DNA of 64,000 nt. It comes from Owenia fusiformis (taxonomy: Eukaryota; Annelida; Polychaeta; Sabellida; Oweniidae). The translations under genes were made by a program, and so were the position numbers. Positions 4,082 through 39,800 of this stretch are shown here, in pieces. Positions within the stretch are counted from its first letter, which is position 1. The number at the start of each line of letters is the position of its first letter. Below the pieces are notes generated by a model that had not been told where the DNA came from, did not search any database, and saw only the letters and a list, made by a program, of their open reading frames with translations. The stretch is from positions 36,671,366-36,735,365 of the forward strand of contig CAIIXF020000001.1 of assembly GCA_903813345.2 (NCBI GenBank), in the 5' to 3' direction.

Positions 4082-7000
4082 ATGAAATTGATGCTGACTT
4101 AAATTTCTTAGACAATATCCTAGACCATCAAGTTGACGAAGAATTTGAAGCAGATTCCCAAAAAGGTATATTATTAAAACAAAATGTAATATTTCTTAAA
4201 TATTAACCTGTTGTTAATATTTATGCTATAGTGTAAACATATTTATACTCATACTTTTTATGCTACAAAAGCAGTGATAAAAATGGATGAATTCCATCAG
4301 GTACAAAATGAATTCATAATGCTGTCTGTCTTCCAGCAAAGAAACATTCAAAAACTAAATTAAACGGAGCAAAGAAAAGAAAAAGTGAAGGCACTATGGA
4401 CGTAGATGGAGAGGAAAAGGACAAGAAGTTAAAGGATATGGAACGAAGGAGGAAACAGTTAGAAAAGGAAAATAAAGAGCGAGAAGAGACATTGCGGAAA
4501 TTAAAGATGGAAGAGGAGCTTTTGAAAAGTCCCGATGGTATGTATATTCAAATGATTCACTGTTATATATTTGCTATTCAAAACCTCAGAACTTTGAGCT
4601 TTATACAATATATTTGATTGCTGCATTACATTTTATGTCTTGAGTAATACGTCACATCTGACAAGATGTCATGGTCCTAATATTTTAGGGTTGAAGGCAA
4701 GTTCGAAGAAATCGGACAAGTCAAAATCCCCTCGAAAATCGGGTAAGTATTATTTGAACAAATATGTACATTATAGTCTTACCTTGTTTTGCGGTTATAT
4801 TCAATTTTGTTCAGTTCAATTGTCATAGATCTACATGTAGTTTAGTTTAATGGAAGACTACCAAGTACATATGTGTATATGATATATGTGTTATTATTAC
4901 AACTTTGTATTCTTTTTATATATCATTGTTCTCCTCAGAATGTTTTCTTAGGTGGATGCAAAACTTTAATTTGAATTATTCTTTTATAAAGAATGTTCAG
5001 AACTGATTCATTTTTTGTGATTTTACAAATTCTCAACCAATGAGGTATTTCAATTGCTACTTTTAATTTTCAACTGGGCGAGACCACTGATATTTATTGT
5101 ACAATATATGTTTAATTATTAATGCATGTTACCAGCAATAGATTTAAGTTTCAGTTCACCAAGTATATTTCTTCGTTTTGCGTGATTTCAACATTTCTTT
5201 TTATTTGATGTTGTTCGATTATCAGCTTGTTAATCATATTTTCAATTTATTTTGCATGCCTTTCAGCAGCCAAATTTGAAGTATCAATCAATTCATATAA
5301 AGGTCACCCTTTATGTTTTACCAAAGTCTTTTAAGTGTAGCACTGGAATCATGTTATTAGGAACCTTTATCTTTCAACATATCAATTATGTTGATGTTGC
5401 AGTAATAGCCATACTTTGCTTATAAGGACTGTCTCCATGTTATGATCAGTGTAGTCATTAACAGCCTTCCCAGCGGTCACAGACCACTTAGTACGGGACC
5501 AGCAGAAGTTGCATAATTACTGGTCTTTTTGACCAGTGTGTTTTTGTGTCTATTAACCTCAAGGAATGATGTCCATGATATTATTGTTACAAATGGATAA
5601 TACTTTTGATTTACTCTTAAGTTTACATCATATTTGCTTCTTGTGACAGTCTTTTCTTAAACAAAAGTAAATAATATCATTGGTTTCTCTCGTGAAAACA
5701 ACATGATTAGGAATGATATGGACCCAAATATTCTAAAATTGAAACAGTTTTTGGTATCTTTTTATTAAGATCTGATTCTAGATTTTATGATATAATGACC
5801 TTTGAACAAAATGTATTTTCTCATGTGCCTGCATTGTATTAGTAGTTTACTGCTATATTTGTAGACCATGATGATGAGGTCAATATGGACCTTGGAGATG
5901 ACCTAGGGGGTGAGACTATTAAGGGTTATGACACCAGGAGTGAAGCTGGGAGTGGATTCTCCGAGAGCAGCCTATCAGGTACAACTCAGAACAGAACATT
6001 TTTTTCATAGTTGATCGATCTAATACAAAAGTTATCCTCAGATTCAAAGCTACCAGACCTCAACATACTGTTACTGTGATCTTTTGAGGCTCTGTGTTGA
6101 GCTGATCATAGCACCACTAAGGTCACTAATACATTTAGTCCCTTGTGTTAGCTATGATACAACCATGCCCACTTGGGTATCATGATTTCTGGTTTATAGC
6201 CCCTGTGAGATTGACAAGAAATTGACTTTGTGGATAATGTGTTCAGCATCTGTAAGAAATAGCAAGTGGTGACATTTTGCATGTTCATGCCTTGTGTTGA
6301 GATTGTAAGCAATATCCATTCCTTTTTAACATTTTACAAGTTATGGCAATAAATAATCACCAAACAAGACTCTCATTGGTGTATAACATTTGTACATTTT
6401 GGTTCTCTATGACTTCTTTTTAGAATCTGAAAATGATGAGAAGCCAGAGGGAAACAGGAGCCGTGCGGATAGCAACCGTAGTATCTCCCCCATAGCTTTT
6501 CCTGAGAGAGATGAATCAGAAGATGGTATGTCTAGCCAGTTCAGTTTTTATTGTCATTCATCAAGTCTCTCCTTAGTCCTTCTTATTTCCTCACCACATT
6601 GTGAAGACTGAGAAATAAGGATGAAGTGACATTCAGTAGAAATAACGTAAATACAGCTTAATAAGTAACTCTCTTATGTGAATACTATATGCTGTTGATT
6701 ATTTCAATGTGTTCATCATTTAATGTATGATGAAATGTAGTATCATATCATGTAATATGTGTGTATCATACTATAATGTATCATGAAATGTAGTATCATA
6801 TCATGTAATATGTGTGTATCATACTATAATGTAAGATGTTGTATTTTTGTAGTTGCTGCAGCTGAGGCAGAAAGTAAACCTGTAGAGGAGTCCACTTCTA
6901 ATGTAACTGCTGGTGTAGGTGAGTAGTACTTTATATTATAACTGCTGGTGTAGGTGAGTAGTACTTTATATTATAACTGCAGGTGTAGGTGAGTAGTACT

Positions 7001-10000
7001 TTATATTATAACTGCTGGTGTAGGTGAGTAGTACTTTATATTATAACTGCTGGTGTAGGTGAGTAGTACTTTATATTATAACTGCTGGTGTAGGTGAGTA
7101 GTACTTTATATTATAACTGCTGGTGTAGGTGAGTAGTACTTTATATTATAACTGCTGGTGTAGGTGAGTAGTACTTTATATTATAACTGCTGGTGTAGGT
7201 GAGTAGTACTTTATATTATCAGGTAAACTTTTTATGTGCAATTCCTCATGGGGGTCTATCAGGATCAGAAGACCACAATAGATTCCCTTCATTTAATGTC
7301 TCTGAGAAGAATTTAGTCGATCAATGCTCACACAATTAAGTCCAAAATGATGGTGGTGCATTTGTATTTGGAAAATGTTTGACAATATTCACTGAATATT
7401 AGTGTATATTATTGACCTACGACTACTATCAAAAATATTATATTCTGACAATGTAATCTGAGATCACAGTTCACTATTACTATTGACTGCTCTATGACCA
7501 ATCAAAATCTACAAGAACATGTTGTTTTATCTTCCAGCTCAAGGTCGCTATTTGAAGTACATGTTCCGTGATGCCAGGTTTTACCTCATCAAAAGCAACA
7601 ACAGTGAGAATGTTGCACTGGCCAAGGCTAAAGGAGTCTGGTCAACCCCACCACAAAATGAACAGAAACTCAACAATGCCTACAGAGTGAGACACTTTAA
7701 CCATGTTCTTTAGTAGTTAGAAAAGTTCATTTTTATCATAATAGTAACTAAAGCAGTATAACCCCTAATTACCAATCATTGGTTGACTGGAGAATAAGTC
7801 TTTGAAGTTGTGTAAAACAATTAGTTTAGGGCACCGTGTAGAAAGTAATATTTCATTCAGTTAGTTGGTAAATCAGATATAAGAGGCATTGAAATAGCTA
7901 GAATCAATTATACTCTAGATTGAACTTATGTCACTTGTACTTGCCTTGTTAATTTATATTTGTCTGGCATAACAATTTTTGTATATCCCCAAACCATGAT
8001 TAACCCTGATATTTTCCTTGTTTTAGGAACACAAGAATGTTATCTTGATCTTTTCTGTAAAAGAAAGTGGAAAATTCCAAGGTAAGATATCTCGTGGTCT
8101 TGTTTGTGTTCAAACTCATTTTGATTATTTGTAACTGTAAAATATAACTGAAAAGCATTGAACACAGTGGACACTGGACAGTTATTTGACTTATAAGATT
8201 CAATAATGTTCATCGATAGTGGGTGAAGGGAATCTGAGCATTTGTTAAATATGTTTCTCAAGAAAAAAATTTTGATATTGTGACCCTGCAACTAGTCATT
8301 AAAGTAGCGCTAAATATCAATCTCTGCATTTCAGGCTATGCACGTGTAGCAGCTCTCTCAGACAAAGACCACCCCCCTATACGCTGGGTCCTCCCCCCAG
8401 GCATGACAGCTAGAGCTCTCTCGGGAGTCTTCAAGCTGGATTGGATCAACAGGTATAACATAAGATTTAGATTTACTGGATGTTCTCATTATCAGGCCTT
8501 TTCTAATTGGCCAGTAGTTAAAATTATTTTCAAAATAAAAACTAACTATAAAGCATAAAAAGCGAATATGATTCATATTCAAAATTGGAACTCTCAAATT
8601 GAAAGTATTTAGTTAAGGAATAATAGAAGGAAAAGTTCATCCAAATAGTAATACTTATATGTGAGAATATGGTAAAATGCAGATATAATCAATGATATAT
8701 GGTTGACTATTTCTTCTTGTATTCCAGGAGAGAATTGCCATTCACTAAAGTTGGACATTTGCGCAATCCTTGGAACAATGGAAAACCACTGAAAATTGGA
8801 AGAGATGGACAGGTGAGATTAAACAAGCCTCTTGTTCTCTCTGTTATTCATGTATTTGAACTCTTCACTAGACATCAACTTTTACTGCTCATTAGATTTG
8901 TGTTAAATGTAGTGAAATATCCTGATACTACCTTTCTACTGGACAGTTAGTGAAAATATTTTCTAGTGAAAATAATTTCTACTATTTTATTTTTTGTATT
9001 CAAAAAGTTTGGTTCTTGTAAAGTGATTATATAAAATTGATATAATTACAGTATGTGTACTTTTATCATAATCTACATGTATATATATTCTCTGTTCTAT
9101 GATTTCTATATATATTTTTACATATTCTATGTTCTTTGATTTCAGGATATTGAGCCTTCAGTTGGAGAAGAATTGTGCCGTTTATTTCCTGTGGATGAGA
9201 ACATTGAGATAACAACCATAGCACGTAAAGCTAAACATGCTAAAGCATTAGGGAGAGACTATGGTAGAGAGCGAATGAATAGAGGCCATGTAGAATATAG
9301 GTTAGAAGACTCCCTTTATGGACATTTAGTTTATTGTTTTACGGGACTTTCACCCGGCTGATATTTCCACAGGGACTCTGCAGTACAGTGCAGTGATGAT
9401 TCGTTGCAGTACAATGTGATAACGATGATGTTTTCCATGTGTGCGATAGATGGAGTAGCAGTCTGCTGTTTTTCTTATCATAGTGCCCAAGTAACAGTGT
9501 TGCCAGCCAGATATATCAATACCATCATTTACCAACAAAGGGTTCTGTAGAGTTTTAGAATATCATTACACCCATCTGTTCCCCAAAGGATTTTCAGTCC
9601 TTGGTGTGAAATATTTATTATTTTATTGAATCAGTTATATAATTCTAAGTGAGAACTAATCAAACTAATTTTTGGAAGCACATCAAATCTCTGAAGTTTT
9701 TATCTCATTTAAAATTGTCAGTCTCATTCCACATGATACTCATTTATTGTCAAATTCCTGGCAACACTGAACAAGGACATTCATTTCTCTACCTTTTCAC
9801 CTAGACATTTTACCATTGTTCATGTGGTATTGTTGTCCTTTGTATTGTGTCCTAACTAAGCCATATGAGCTTCATTGACACCTACATATAAAAACCCTCT
9901 GCTTAATTTTTCAGTCCTCTAAGTCTAAATACGCAGGGAACGTGCGCTGGCTGACTGACTGAAAGTCACCCTGGGTTCAATTCGAAGTCACACCTGCTGT

Positions 10001-22200: not shown

Positions 22201-23193
22201 CTTCCATTTCCGGTTTCAGATTTAATTTGTGGGCCTTCAAATGCAGCGTCCACATTATAGAGCCAGGGTTCCACAAAACATCTATCACCAATGTTGACCT
22301 AAATGTTGCCAGCTTCAGGAGGTCCTACAACCAAGCACCCCAAGAGGTGAAGGATGAATATGGGGATGAGTTCATAGATGCAGGTACTGTGCTAATATGG
22401 TGCCTTTCCCAGGGTGCCAACCTATTACTCTGCCACTATGGGGCCCATCAATTATTTTGCCACTATGGGGCCCAACCATTATTTTGCCATTATTTTGCCA
22501 CTATGGGGCCCAACCATTATTTTGCCACTCTGGGGGCCATCCATTATTTTGCCACTATGGGGCCCAACCATTATTTTGCCACTATGGCTGTATGGGGCCC
22601 ATCCATTATTGTATCAATATGGGTCAAACTATTCAAGAATATCAAAAATAAAAATTGTTATTTCTATGACTTTTGATTTCTATGACTTTTGATTTCTATT
22701 GAAAATATGTATCTGATATAAATAGATGTCAATGCCATTAGTATGCATCATATAAATATATATCAAAGTAATTTAATTGTATTTGTAGTATTATGTGAAA
22801 TCATGCCATATGCACTTTATCCATACTAAAAAGTCAGTCTGATAGTCAGCCAATTATGAGATGGTGTATAACTCAAAGTGCAACTTCCACTCTCTGTAAC
22901 TTCACCAACAGATCACTATGGTTTATGATTGTATCAAGACTCTTCTAATCTTCCTTTCAGCCTGTGGTATGATGAAGGAGAAAACAGAACAATTCCTCTC
23001 CCCCAAGTTGATGGATGTTGTGAATGCATACAGCCACGCCCTGTTCTCTGTCTACCCAAGGAACAGATACCAAGTGGGCTCAGATTCCAAGTTATTCTTT
23101 ATTCCTCTCTCCTTTATGCACTCGGCATTCCAGGACTTTTTCTTCAGACTCTTGGCTAACAGAGATGTAAAGCCTAAGGGAGCACTGCGATAA
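19268..23193 (+). CDS. Short-chain dehydrogenase/reductase, retinol dehydrogenase / 17-beta-HSD6-like (SDR9C type)
   Basis: Five exons: 19268-19410, 20950-21122, 21625-21886, 22220-22383, 22961-23193; joined they encode 324 residues in one frame. Residues 4-20 form a hydrophobic membrane anchor. The cofactor motif TGCDTGFG is at 35-42, NNAG at 112-115, the catalytic serine at about 165 and YCISK (Tyr178, Lys182) after it. EPGFHKT follows in exon 4. The length and motifs match the microsomal SDR9C group (RDH5/RDH16/HSD17B6), NAD-dependent enzymes that oxidise retinol or 3-alpha/17-beta hydroxysteroids at the ER membrane. The exact substrate cannot be read from sequence. The start is the first ATG of the anchor, matching family N-termini. 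Intron 1 contains a dispersed repeat and intron 4 a 27-bp tandem array. The gene is tail to tail with WDR35. Confidence 0.9.
20216..20890. repeat. Dispersed repeat, copy 1 (related to 48924-49503)
   Basis: About 670 bp beginning near CAACGCCAAAGCGTAGCAAA, with repeated GCCGCCATTTT and ACCAAATATGAACAAAAT phrases, ending in a degenerate GGACGGACGGATGGACAGA tract. It matches 48924-49503 in order over most of its length. It lies in intron 1 of the SDR gene, about 60 bp before exon 2. It has no coding sequence. Confidence 0.85.
21191..21325. mobile_element. MITE of the CACTGGTGGAT family
   Basis: The left end CACTGGTGGATTTGGAGGG and the right end CAGATCCACCACTGG are inverted repeats and match the ends of the element at 1057-1330. 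It is about 135 bp long, in SDR intron 2, with no coding capacity. Confidence 0.6.
22425..22615 (+). repeat. Degenerate ~27-bp tandem array in SDR intron 4
   Basis: About seven imperfect copies of a unit containing TTTTGCCACTATGGGGCCCA. The array starts about 40 bp after the donor of exon 4. The reading frame of exon 4 stays open through the whole array, to 22676, so a retained intron would add a repetitive HYGAQPLFC-like tail. I regard this as intron, because exon 5 supplies the expected family C-terminus. Confidence 0.8.
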
Positions 23194-24463: not shown

Positions 24464-24730
24464 ACAGTTTTCTCTCACAACATAATCCCTAATAAATATC
24501 AGTTTTTATAATAAATATGTTTCAATTTATATTTTTTTGCATTCCAACTGATGTGAGTCAGAAAGGCAGTGCACTGAGCGAAATGCATGTTTATGAACTC
24601 AGTCCATATGATGGAATACATGTTGATGAACTCAGTCCATATGATGGAATGCATTCAGTCTTTTCACTTTTCACAAAATACTTCAAACTATGGGGTGATG
24701 GAGGTTTTCCATCTGTCTGATATGTGGTCT

Positions 24731-24885
24731 TCATACTATACAATGGCATAAGGGACATGTGTGTCTTTCTGCTATTTAGTCATCATACCATAGAGTGGCA
24801 TAGGGGACATGTTTGTCTGTCTGCTATTTAGTCATCATACCATAGAGTGGCATAGGGGACATGTTTGTCTGTTAGCAATTTGGTC
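24731..24885 (-). repeat. Tandem 51-bp repeat covering the last codons and stop of WDR35
   Basis: The segment coding for the final [10 protein letters not shown] and stop (24835-24885) is followed by a near-identical 51-bp copy (24784-24834) and a more diverged 50-bp copy (24731-24783), both in the 3' UTR. The extra copies are non-coding because the first stop comes before them. Confidence 0.85.
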
Positions 24886-33800: not shown

Positions 33801-36800
33801 TTTTGGATATCGGGTTTATCCTAAGGAAAATATATGTCTCTCTCAAAGGACCACAGGCTGAATCCTATATCTAATGTCAAACATAATCGGTTAATGAAAA
33901 CAGGGTTTATCTTTGCTATGATGGCTTTATGGATAAGGCCTTGGGATCTTATTGCCTACCATTTTTGTCTATCAGCATAGTAGTTTCCAATAGCATTCCA
34001 AGCCTCCTCTAGCTGAACATCATCACCCCCTCCTGCCCCTGTCTTCAACAGTTGGACAACACGGAACCAGTCACCTAACTTCTTACGTAAACTCACAGCC
34101 AAGTCCCTGAATAACATTTATATGCATACATGTACAATCTATTCTGAATACATGTTTACTCTCTTGCAATAGAGTATTCAGAATACATGTATTTTCTTTA
34201 TTAAATGACCTTTATGAACATGACTTTGCTAATGGAAAATGGTCACGAGGCATATTTTGAATCATATAGAAATCTTCGTCAAAACAATTTTCTTAATTTC
34301 TAAATTATGATTGAGAAATATGACATAAGAAACAGACTGCAGATATTCTATTATTCTGTACCTTCTATCCATGTCCAAATATGTTCTCTCAGCCTCTTCA
34401 AACCTTTTGAAATATGCTGCAACTTCAGCTTGCTTCATTGAATCATTCTGAAGATGTAAGACACAGATTTAAGTCAATCAAGTTAATTCTTCAATGTAAC
34501 TGTTCAAATCTATTTAAATACAACTGTGCAACATTGCTTTAGATATCTTTTAAAATTAAAATAATGTTTCATGACCAATCCAGATGTGTAAAAATTTGAA
34601 GAAATTCCATTAAGTGGTTTTCCTGGAATCGTTATGACAAAGAAGTGAGATGCCACCCGCCTGTAAAGCTGACAACAAAACTGTGCCTCTTTTTAGGTAC
34701 GATAAAAAGATTTTCTTTAACTCTGACTGGGACCCAAATATGTTGACTGTCGATGTTTCTAAGTAAAGAAGTACTAATAAAAGTATAATAATTTACCTGT
34801 AGATTGCCAAGTCTCTTTACAAACTCTATCCCCTGATAGTCTTTACATCTGACAAATGCCTGCTCAGCCACCTTAAGATTCAACTGCTCCAGTGCAGTTT
34901 CTGCCAAAAGTCGCCTTAAGAAACAAACATGACTACTTTTTAATGAAAATTATTTTGGAAATTCAAGAGGTGATTTTTAAACATTCAACCTTTGAAATTA
35001 ATATATTCTGTAACGTACAATTAAATATATAATTTGCATTATCTACAAATGTTTTCTACAAGACCAATGCCTTTCTTTTCAGAGCCTACAATGTAAATTA
35101 GATTGCTTTCTATGAACTTACCATAGTCTAGGATGTGGGTTGTCTTCTATGAACTTACCATAGTCTAGGATGTGGGTTGTCTTCTATGAACTTACCATAG
35201 TCTAGGATGTGGGTTGTCTTCTATGTTCTTTCCATAGTCTAGGATGCGAGTTGTCTTCTATGAACTTACCATAGTCTAAGATGTGGGTTGTTTTCTATGT
35301 TCTTACCATAGTCTAGGATGTGGGTTGTCTTCTATGAACTTACCATAGTCTAGGATGTGGGTTGTCTTCTATGAACTTACCATAGTCTAGAATGTGGGTT
35401 GTCTTCTATGAACTTACCTTTTTTTTTTTTTTTTTTTTTTCAATTCAATTCAATTTATTGGTAATAACAAATATGATTTACATAATTAAACATAGTAGGT
35501 GACGTCATTTTCAGACGTTTATACCCACACATACGAGAACAAAATAAGTGGTACAAAAATCTAATCTAAGAATTAAGTCGAACAGTGATAAAAAATGTTC
35601 GTATCAAATGACACTACTTTAATTTTTAAAGGTGAATGGAAGAATCAACTGATATCTCAAATGGGAATCGATCATGTTAATTATAAGACATAAATTCATA
35701 TTCTAAGTCTGATACTCAATGTTAAAGAACTAATCAATCGTAAAAAAGCAAGGTCAGTAAATATATACAGAATATAAAATATATGAATGAATGAACCCAA
35801 CTGAAATCAAGTAATGTATTAGGATACATGTGTATAATATCCAAGAGTGGTTATAAAAGCGGTAATATTTCAGAAACGTCACTAGGCTATTTCATTGCCT
35901 TAGTTTGTTTATGTTACATTTTCATCATGGATAGTAACAATTCAATAGTAGAGTCATATCTACATAGATCTGCTATTCACAAGTTGTTGATATATTGCGT
36001 GAGGATTTGAATTTATGTCCAATTCTGTACGATGACAACGACTATCAAACCCTTCAAACGAACAGAAGATTTTCCCATTGAACATCCAACAGTCTTTCAC
36101 AAAATCCATATTTCTAACAGTTTTCATCAACTTGACATTCTTTACAGTGGCGTCCTCATGAATAGCAATACCAGATTTGGCAAGTTTCTTCCTGTTTTTG
36201 ATCATAGATTGTCTGGAGTCATTGGTGTTGAATTTTACAATCAGTGCCCTCTTTTGACCAGGTACTTTTAGTCCAATTCTATGTGCAACATCAATATCAT
36301 TATTGGAAATATTTGCTTCTATCCGCTGGGCAACTTCGAGAACTAATGCCTTGCAATCTTCATGTTCTGTTTCCTCTACTCCAGTTATCTTAATGTTACT
36401 TTTGCGTGAATATTGTTCATTCTTGTTTGCTTCTGCTTCAAGTTCTGCCAGACGTTTATTTAAACCAATAATTTCATCGTTGGCTTGTATCAGATCAGAT
36501 TCAAAGGAATCATTGATGTCTTTTAGTTGTCGTATAGATTCTTCAGTCTCAGACAGTCTTTGATTGTACACTGCCATGGAGCTATTGATTGATTCTGGAA
36601 TTAATTTATTTAGTGAGGTGCTGATTTGAGACTCTATACCTCTTATAATGTCACTTATATTTGTACTGGAGATTTCAGATGTACATTCATTGTCTGTATT
36701 AATCTGTTGTTCTCTATTTACATGGTATTGTTGCTGTGGTAGTAACAGATCTGCTTTATATGCTGTTGAGATCGGAAATGTACTCATGGGTTGAGATACA

Positions 36801-39800
36801 GTATTGTCCAAACAAGGTTAATGTGGAGAATCGGAGACAATTGAATGGAAACTTGCAGACATATTTTCCATGGATGGTACTGTGAATGTCATATTGGCTG
36901 ATGAGGCTGTTGATGATATCACACTAGTTGTAATGACTGATAAAAAGGTGGAAGACATTACAGGTAGACAGGGTTGAGACAGTCCTTGATCTGCTTGTGT
37001 TGTTATTGTTGTTGCATACTGGGTAATTGGTGTTTGTATTAGCTGTGACATGATGTTAGGTTCAGTTGATCGCACTCAAAATAATAATCCTATTTCAGTG
37101 AGGTCAGTCAGGTAAGTCTGGCATATAAATAGTAAACTGGTAAATCCGATAAGTAGCTGATTAGTGTTACTAGAGTTGTAGGATGTGGGTTGTCTTCTAT
37201 GAACTTACCATAGTCTAGGATGTGGGTTGTCTTCTATGAACTTACCATAGTCTAGGATGTGGGTTGTCTTCTATGAACTTACCATAGTCTAGGATGTGGG
37301 TTGTCTTCTATGTTCTTACCATAGTCTAGGATGTGGGTTGTCTTCTATGAACTTACCATAGTCTAAGATGTGGGTTGTCTTCTATGTTCTTACCATAGTC
37401 TAGGATGTGGGTTGTCTTCTATGAACTTACCATAGTCTAAGATGTGGGTTGTCTTCTATGTTCTTTCCATAGTCTAGGATGCGAGTTGTCTTCTATGAAC
37501 TTACCATAGTCTAAGATGTGGGTTGTCTTCTATGAACTTACCATAGTCTAAGATGTGGGTTGTTTTCTATGTTTTTACCATAGTCTAGGATGTGGGTTGT
37601 CTTCTATGAACTTACCATAGTCTAAGATGTGGGTTGTCTTCTATGAACTTACCATAGTCTAGGATGTGGGTTGTCTTCTATGAACTTACCATAGTCTAGG
37701 ATGTGGGTTGTCGTCTATGTTCTTACCATAGTCTAGGATGTGGGTTGTCTTCTATGAACTTACCATAGTCTAGGATGTGGGTCATCTTCTATGAACTTAC
37801 CATAGTCTAGGATGTGGGTTGTCTTCTATGAACTTACCATAGTCTAGAGTGTGGGTTGTCTTGTATGTTCTTACCATAGTCTAGGATGTGGGTTGTCTTC
37901 TATGTTCTTACCATAGTCTATGAACTTACCATAGTCTAGGATGTGGGTTGTCTTCTATGAACTTACCATAGTCTATGAACTTACCATAGTCTAGGATGTG
38001 GGTTGTCTTCTATGTTCTTACCATAGTCTATGAACTTACCATAGTCTAGGATGTGGGTTGTCTTCTATGTTCTTACCATAGTCTATGAACTTACCATAGT
38101 CTAGGATGTGGGTTGTCTTCTATGAACTTACCATAGTCTATGAACTTACCATAGTCTAGGATGTGGGTTGTCTTCTATGAACTTACCATAGTCTAGGATG
38201 TGGGTTGTCTTCTATGAACTGTTGTGCATCTTCAATTCCAACTTTCTCAAGTAGATCTCTGCTGTCCCTTAAAGACTGGAAAACACAGATGTGGAGACAT
38301 AAATACAGGTATATAGCAAGCCCACCATACAAATGGCAACATGTTATATTCAGACATATACTAGTTCTGTATATGTAGACCAAGATATAAAGAAGCAAGA
38401 GGATTTACCCCTGGTCAAGCATATGACATGTACAGTGAAACCTGTAAAGTGGACCACCTCTATTTGTGAAACACTTTTCAGCATCCCAAGACTAACTGAC
38501 TTAATGTATGAACCTGTTTAAGTGGAACACCTCCAGAGTGGAAAACTTTTAGGAGGTACCACAGGTGTTCCACTTAGACAGGTTTTACTGTATAACAATG
38601 TCAGATCTAAAAATTACCATAATGTGAGTTAATAGGAAGGGTTTTACAAATAGAGTATAGACATATACAATTATGTACAAAGATCACTAGTAATTTACAA
38701 GAATTGTAAAATAAAAATAGTACATCATAAATCTTCAATAGATTTAACAGCATACTTCAGATAACTGATACATACAATCAGACAAACTGACAAAAGGTAC
38801 TTGGCTACACTCCAAGAAGAATGTAATAACATACAAAATATAAAAGATTACTACAAATGCTCAAAATTAAAAGTTTATTTATTATCAAAAGTAGAAAATT
38901 ATGTTCTAGGCATTTCATTAGTTTAAGATTTGTATAGATGTCAGTTTAGAATCTTCAAACACTACCATGAACTTTACATTTGTTAATAGATGGCAATGCA
39001 ATAGACTTCTGAGAACTCATTATCATAAATTGATAAACTTCTGAGAACTCATTAATAACTTCAGAATAAGCCTTTGCCTGCTTAGAGGTGACTACGTTTT
39101 TAAAAGCTGAAAAAGTTCACCTACAGTAAGTCAAAACTGCTCACTAAATTAATACTAGTATTCAAACAGTTTTTTTCTGAAAAACAATATCTGTTTATCC
39201 AATCTTTCAATCAACCAAACATAACCCATTTTATTGACTCATGAAAGACGATATGTCAATTTTTGTGAAAGTCAGTAATTAAGGACAGGGTGCATGTTGG
39301 GAAATTTTCTGCATTCCTCAATTGAGTCACATGTTATTTTTCAAACATGAATAACTCCTTCCCCACATTGTCTACATCTTCCAAGTTTGCTCAAAGAATG
39401 CACTTCTGTGCCTAGAAAAGCCTTGTGAGAAGGTTTGTTTTGTAAAATGTATAAAAAATGAGAAAATTCAGTGAAAAAAATTTCTGAAAATTTTCTGATT
39501 TTTTTCACTGAATTTTCTTGTTTTTTATACACTTTATCAAAACATTCTTCTCACAAGTCTTTTCTAGGCACATAAGTGCACTCTTTGTGCAAAACTGGAA
39601 GATATAGACAATGAAGGGAAGGAGTGATTCTTGTTTGAAAAATAACATGTGACTCAATTGAGGAATGCAGAAAATTTCCCATCATGCACCCTGACCTTAA
39701 TGCTAGCCTAGATCTAGGCAAATAAAAAAAAATTCACAGTTTATGTATATGTAGACAAAAGTAGACAATGTAATGATACTTTCCTGAAAAAAGCAAGGAA

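Follow-up and report, generated by a model that had tools for sequence, protein, structure and literature searches.

Tandem repeats whose units run across exon/intron boundaries were named 'mirage' minisatellites in lancelets (PMC3087553). The report describes them in Adh3, in the globin genes BflGb6 and BflGb9 and in PGBD5, with troponin C cited among other loci, and presents reverse transcription-polymerase chain reaction (RT-PCR) results as suggesting that regular splicing is undisturbed by them. In the earthworm metallothionein gene intronic minisatellites have been described, with no mention in the passages available of splice sites within the repeats (PMC12783039), and for annelids or any other non-chordates no earlier description of arrays of this kind was found in the part of the open-licence literature covered, represented mostly by titles and the beginnings of abstracts. 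Here we analyze a stretch of 64,000 nucleotides from the annelid Owenia fusiformis (assembly GCA_903813345.2, contig CAIIXF020000001.1, positions 36,671,366 to 36,735,365; the window, to which coordinates refer unless another scaffold position is given), the minus strand of which carries the gene WDR35 (IFT121). A preliminary description, made from the sequence alone, had noticed in this gene a chain of copies of an exon end together with its 5' splice site. Our results make it likely that this feature is a donor-type mirage minisatellite, neutral and hidden from selection by the use of the exon-proximal donor.

The main repeat unit has 37 bp and reads TTCATAGAAGACAACCCACATCCTAGACTATG|GTAAG, that is, the last 32 bases of the exon followed by the start of the intron; splitting the array into units agrees with the 32 coding bases plus GTAAG proposed before. 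Counting the exon copy, the array has 33 complete 37-bp units; it also has five units of 18 bp, each of them with a donor, and in addition one truncated unit beside an insert and one partial unit at 35114-35108. About 35 copies had been estimated, with tandem repeat analysis proposed for the exact number, and this estimate was close to the 38 unit-borne donor positions now counted. Twenty-seven of these read GTAAGT, eight GTAAGA, one GTAAAA and two GAAAGA, the GT being intact at 36 of the 38, in line with the GTAAGA variants and GT-less units mentioned in the preliminary description. With a 37-bp period, Tandem Repeats Finder returned 35108-35418 (8.4 copies, 93% matches) and 37179-37920 (20.1 copies, 92%), and overlapping rows of 55-bp, 92-bp and 37-bp period reached 38220. 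The array had been taken as continuous from 35105 to 38218, which does not hold: a retroelement copy at 37178-35419 divides it into a proximal block (37179-38218, minus strand), with 25 full 37-bp units, five 18-bp units, one truncated unit and 30 donor positions, unit 1 being the exon end, and a distal block (35108-35418, minus strand) of eight full 37-bp units, which account for the other 8 donor positions. The insert, the 18-bp units and the existence of a class of such arrays, with further members in YTHDC1 and elsewhere on scaffold C1, had been overlooked.

Fifteen of the 33 full units are identical to the consensus; 16 of the other 18 differ from it at 1-3 positions and two at five. A 55-bp composite pattern (37 + 18) is present in 10 of the 11 units nearest to the exon, varying only in GTAAGTT versus GTAAGAA, and units with other variants sit deeper in the array, where some units still equal the consensus. 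The composite pattern near the exon and the deeper position of the other variants suggest that the array may have grown recently near the exon edge. When an 83-base piece of the array was used as a query, 17 matches were obtained in the genome, all of them at this locus (the search skips very common words). The ordered units, and the fact that each unit type includes the exon end exactly, ruled out a chance or low-complexity repeat.

The assignment of the gene to WDR35 was supported by a query built from exon pieces, which matched human WDR35 (8fgw_A) with 1037.8 bits in five stretches; the query omitted residues ~297-668, and the match otherwise runs along most of the human protein. The exon that carries the first unit, of 89 nt, is located at 38187-38275 (minus strand), directly after the acceptor TTTTCCAG. 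Its frame is open, with 29 codons plus TG, it ends in CTATG|GTAAGT, and the repeat unit takes its exonic portion from the last 32 nt. The next exon (34797-34914, minus strand) begins with GCGACTT, its donor end being placed from CTACAG|GTAAAT, and the rest of the intron outside the array (34915-35107, minus strand) ends in the acceptor TTTGTTTCTTAAG. The peptide joined across the 38187/34914 junction aligned without gaps to human WDR35 over 68 residues (4.9e-32; 8fgw_A residues 670-737), with W|R at the junction as in the human protein, so that only the first donor fits the coding sequence. The exon end at 38187, which had been named as a point where the description could be refuted, is supported by the ungapped junction match, and so is the acceptor at 34915. 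Read-through past the first donor gives TGG TAA, with the TAA at offset 90 of an exon of 89 nt, as had been stated for any donor but the first, and exons ending at donors 2-4 would measure 126, 144 or 181 nt from the donor positions. The donors had also been called many equals; this is correct for the local sequence, since most neighbors have the same 32 upstream bases and GTAAGTT, and not for the context, since only the first donor closes a full coding exon that has an acceptor, 89 nt upstream, at its other end.

The retroelement insert (35419-37178, minus strand) measures ~1760 bp with its A-tail and lies in the orientation of the gene. It contains one long open frame, of 283 aa from a TTG, for which no Pfam match was obtained at E 0.001, and as a query against the genome it gave 36 matches, with four other full-length copies at 95-97% identity. 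The element resembles an ORF1-only, non-autonomous relative of long interspersed nuclear elements, a label given without a family match. No target-site duplication was seen at its edges and the junction lacks 6 array bases; the joining of the A-tail to GGTAAGT creates an extra donor-like site, AAG|GTAAGT, at 35417. Distinctive variant units, GAAAACAACCCACATCTT..GTAAGT and AACTCG..GAAAGA, are present in both blocks flanking the insert, and to judge from these shared units the expansion of the array evidently predates the insert, the array having been already large when the element landed.

A second array straddling a donor was found in the same window, ~31 kb from that of WDR35. The YTHDC1 exon at 6853-6918 (plus strand) ends in GGTGTAG|GTGAGTAG, with the next exon starting at 7538 and the phase kept, and the YTH domain (PF04146) was recognized when this exon and others downstream were combined into one query. 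The array (6904-7219, plus strand) consists of 9.0 copies of a 35-bp unit with 99% matches, the unit combining 15 bases from the end of the exon with 20 from the intron, and read-through past the first donor leads to a stop. A further array, at 24712-24872 (minus strand), has 3.1 copies of 52 bp that include the last WDR35 codons, the stop codon and 3' flank, and is coding in the first copy only. Near a short-chain dehydrogenase exon there is a 27-bp array (22417-22622, plus strand) whose unit carries no donor.

The genome was also searched for the triple motifs GGTAAGT, GGTGAGT and TTTGCAG, and the figures that follow refer to the matches listed, around 100 places per motif; exon edges in genes other than WDR35 and YTHDC1 were called by eye and not blind. 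Nine places on C1, up to 58.8 Mb, were listed for GGTAAGT, and the eight inspected (51478498 was left out), WDR35 among them, were all judged to begin at an exon end, the weakest call being L003. For GGTGAGT, eight places were listed within the first 15.1 Mb of C1, of which five start from an exon-like end (L037 and L038 are one place), which brings the donor places starting at an exon end to 13 of the 16 inspected among those listed on this scaffold. Of the 12 TTTGCAG places listed on C1, four run up to an exon start. Protein matches of differing strength were obtained for several of the exons. Those at GGTAAGT arrays include a GTF2H2-like exon (Ssl1, 3e-26) and a UPRTase exon (1.1e-7), both over the curated cut-off, a DCAF17-like exon (0.001) and a thrombospondin-1-like exon (0.026), both below it, and a neurolysin-like exon with a PDB match of 0.48 over all its 22 residues and no Pfam match. 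A Rieske_4 exon (3.4e-8, over the curated cut-off) and a sugar-transporter-like exon (6e-4, below the cut-off) are found at GGTGAGT arrays, and a myosin-I exon (1.7e-7) at the acceptor array L054. At L051 the exon is joined by the TATTCCAG acceptor of the array unit, not by TTTGCAG.

Three of these places deserve mention for their structure. The 34-bp donor array that starts from the neurolysin-like exon (L017/L018, C1 ~58792807-58796062) covers ~3.2 kb from the first to the last copy seen, and would be a stronger test case than WDR35. The array at the Rieske-domain exon (L037/L038, C1:6976300-6978900) is apparently broken by ~1.1 kb of other sequence, as in WDR35. In the 33-bp donor array L036 (C1:5411750-5412480) the frame is open in the part fetched, and splicing at later donors would lengthen the protein by 11-residue repeats instead of introducing a stop. 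In the set of 13 donor arrays in which it was evaluated (WDR35 and YTHDC1 included, L003 left out), a stop before the second donor was present in seven, or in eight if the GC site in L004 is not taken as a donor. Taken at face value and with a wide margin of error, eight GGTAAGT arrays in ~59 Mb and five GGTGAGT arrays in ~15 Mb would extrapolate to very roughly 70 and 165 arrays, respectively, in 498 Mb.

In the origin that we propose, a 37-bp tandem duplication would by chance have straddled the 5' splice site of WDR35, and the array would have grown by slippage or unequal exchange. With splicing taking the exon-proximal donor, further copies would be intronic, and so removed and invisible to the protein, and rare misuse of a donor may be cleared by nonsense-mediated decay. 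We infer that nearly all WDR35 transcripts use the first donor, and the array itself is probably devoid of function. Coding continuity requires the first donor in both WDR35 and YTHDC1, and each of the four acceptor arrays has an open frame that begins at the last acceptor, so that the exon-proximal site appears to be taken at donor and acceptor arrays alike. Under exon definition the two splice sites that bound an exon are recognized as a pair. The exon-proximal pattern fits this, and not a simple preference for intron-proximal donors; in WDR35 the choice could be made through the acceptor that lies 89 nt upstream of the first donor and pairs with it. Exon length alone does not explain it, given that exons ending at donors 2-4 would have only 126 to 181 nt, and an immediate stop is not a general design, being found before the second donor in just the seven of 13 arrays indicated above. 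On balance, we lean towards the view that mirage minisatellites are widespread in this non-chordate, with something like one to a few hundred arrays by rough extrapolation, and that the symmetry of donors and acceptors would point to exon definition as the rule for choosing among equal sites, rather than to the order of transcription or to intron-proximal preference.

A special cause for the arrays is probably not needed. A minisatellite-rich genome with dense exons would be expected to yield arrays across exon edges, survival being limited to those that add no copies to the mature message, and by a rough estimate the boundary-straddling arrays of the window are near the expectation from exon density. 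The triple-motif searches gave 811 matches for GGTAAGT versus 1121 for the reversed pattern, 684 versus 531 for GGTGAGT, and 569 for the acceptor TTTGCAG versus 111 for its control pattern; these are counts of overlapping matches, and the ones listed fall mostly within a few long arrays. The birth of arrays targeted to donors was thus unsupported, the reversed-pattern controls leaving no clear general excess of donor arrays.

Several observations weigh against the interpretation given here. The use of the first donor is deduced from coding continuity, and where two comparable donors exist the intron-proximal one is stated to be favored, by a mechanism described as unknown (PMC6002489), which is the reverse of the choice that WDR35 requires. 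Single GGTAAGT sites outside the array proved to be true donors in six of 10 cases in the window (by eye), so that eight of eight exceeds this share just mildly and hardly favors donor-targeted mutation. Open frame and splice signals are all that identifies the exons at L003, L005, L035, L036, L041, L050, L051 and L053, with no match in a Pfam scan of L005, L035, L036, L041, L050 and L053 (L003 and L051 were outside the scan). Among donor places, L039 and L043 were judged not to be exon ends and L040 is unclear. Eight of the 12 listed acceptor places were judged to stop short of an exon edge (L044-L049, L052 and L055), L045 and L047 having an exon-like stretch shortly downstream, outside the array.

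The near identity of the donors at the local level, and the ordinary size that exons ending at donors 2-4 would have, could also be accommodated by sloppy splicing, with random use of many donors, decay clearing the products and the cost being tolerated. We regard this as unlikely, since the cost would have to be borne at several conserved genes, including dozens of donors at the neurolysin-like exon, and the lancelet RT-PCR is reported to suggest regular splicing (PMC3087553). The fact that all donors but the first lead to TGG TAA, with 36 GT intact and 27 GTAAGT, might instead be seen as a functional brake, in which regulated use of internal donors would generate premature stops and tune WDR35 output via nonsense-mediated decay. 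This is less probable still: the immediate stop is found in seven of 13 arrays and is absent from the part of L036 that was fetched, and chance straddling of one kind seems to account as well for the arrays at YTHDC1, at the stop codon and at the acceptors.

Two more explanations concern the array as such. Tandem arrays are error-prone and a single assembly was used, and the copy number could be an artefact, by false expansion or by collapse. Ordered unit variants and an insertion that splits the array make this very improbable, as do the size of the array, with units that total ~1.3 kb and are within the span of a single long read, and the existence of other arrays with different units and the same architecture. 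The hiding of internal donors in a hairpin, leaving the first one available, was considered as well, given the 5-bp inverted repeat that flanks GTAAGTT (CUAUG-GUAAGUU-CAUAG). However, the first donor carries an identical hairpin, and the 112 nt from the array start fold no better than shuffled sequences (z 0.59; 144 of 200 at least as stable). Hairpin hiding was rejected on this folding test, and we give it next to no credit.

If mirages are indeed widespread and spliced at the exon-proximal site, the genome of O. fusiformis would constitute a ready-made experiment on how a choice is made among equal splice sites. With dozens of near-identical donors or acceptors in several genes, site choice could be read from long-read cDNA, and variation in copy number is to be expected. 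The arrays also show how a minisatellite can extend over the edge of an exon without being noticed, and introns could grow from such material. Their presence in an annelid suggests that they arise generally where minisatellites are born near exons, rather than being peculiar to lancelets.

The WDR35 array is a real donor mirage, with a high number of units and a later retroelement insert, its kind being known and its setting one for which we found no earlier report. As in the lancelet mirages, the unit spans the exon/intron boundary, the exon copy being unit 1, splice signals are present in many units (GT at 36 of 38 donor positions), and the units are homogenized (15 of 33 full units equal to the consensus); the cephalochordate setting, which is not strictly defining, is replaced here by an annelid one. 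The assembly has 12 large scaffolds of 31.9-62.2 Mb besides small pieces, against about 19 chromosomes in lancelets, and a search of it for COX1 gave no match. It contains 34 innexin matches over the cut-off, eight of which cover the whole profile with no stop, and a single innexin is described for lancelets (PMC8769644). The lancelet report gives 6 or 3 units of 150-160 bp for the two haplotypes of BflGb6 and units of 10-72 bp for Adh3 (PMC3087553), whereas WDR35 has 38 units of 37 and 18 bp and a retroelement insert; splicing was followed by RT-PCR in lancelets and is read from coding continuity in WDR35. Internal tandem repeats at exon-intron boundaries of human genes in segmental duplications are described as deriving likewise from minisatellite expansion across an exon-intron boundary, with units of ~30 bp, ~4 copies on average, and alternative splicing and novel introns as results (PMC2812944); in WDR35, unlike these, the exon retains its original boundary and the copies seem to be silent. 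Exon 1 of oestrogen receptor alpha likewise has more than one comparable donor, and the account of it reports the intron-proximal one as used (PMC6002489), whereas in WDR35 the exon-proximal donor is required and the further GT donors are 35 instead of one.

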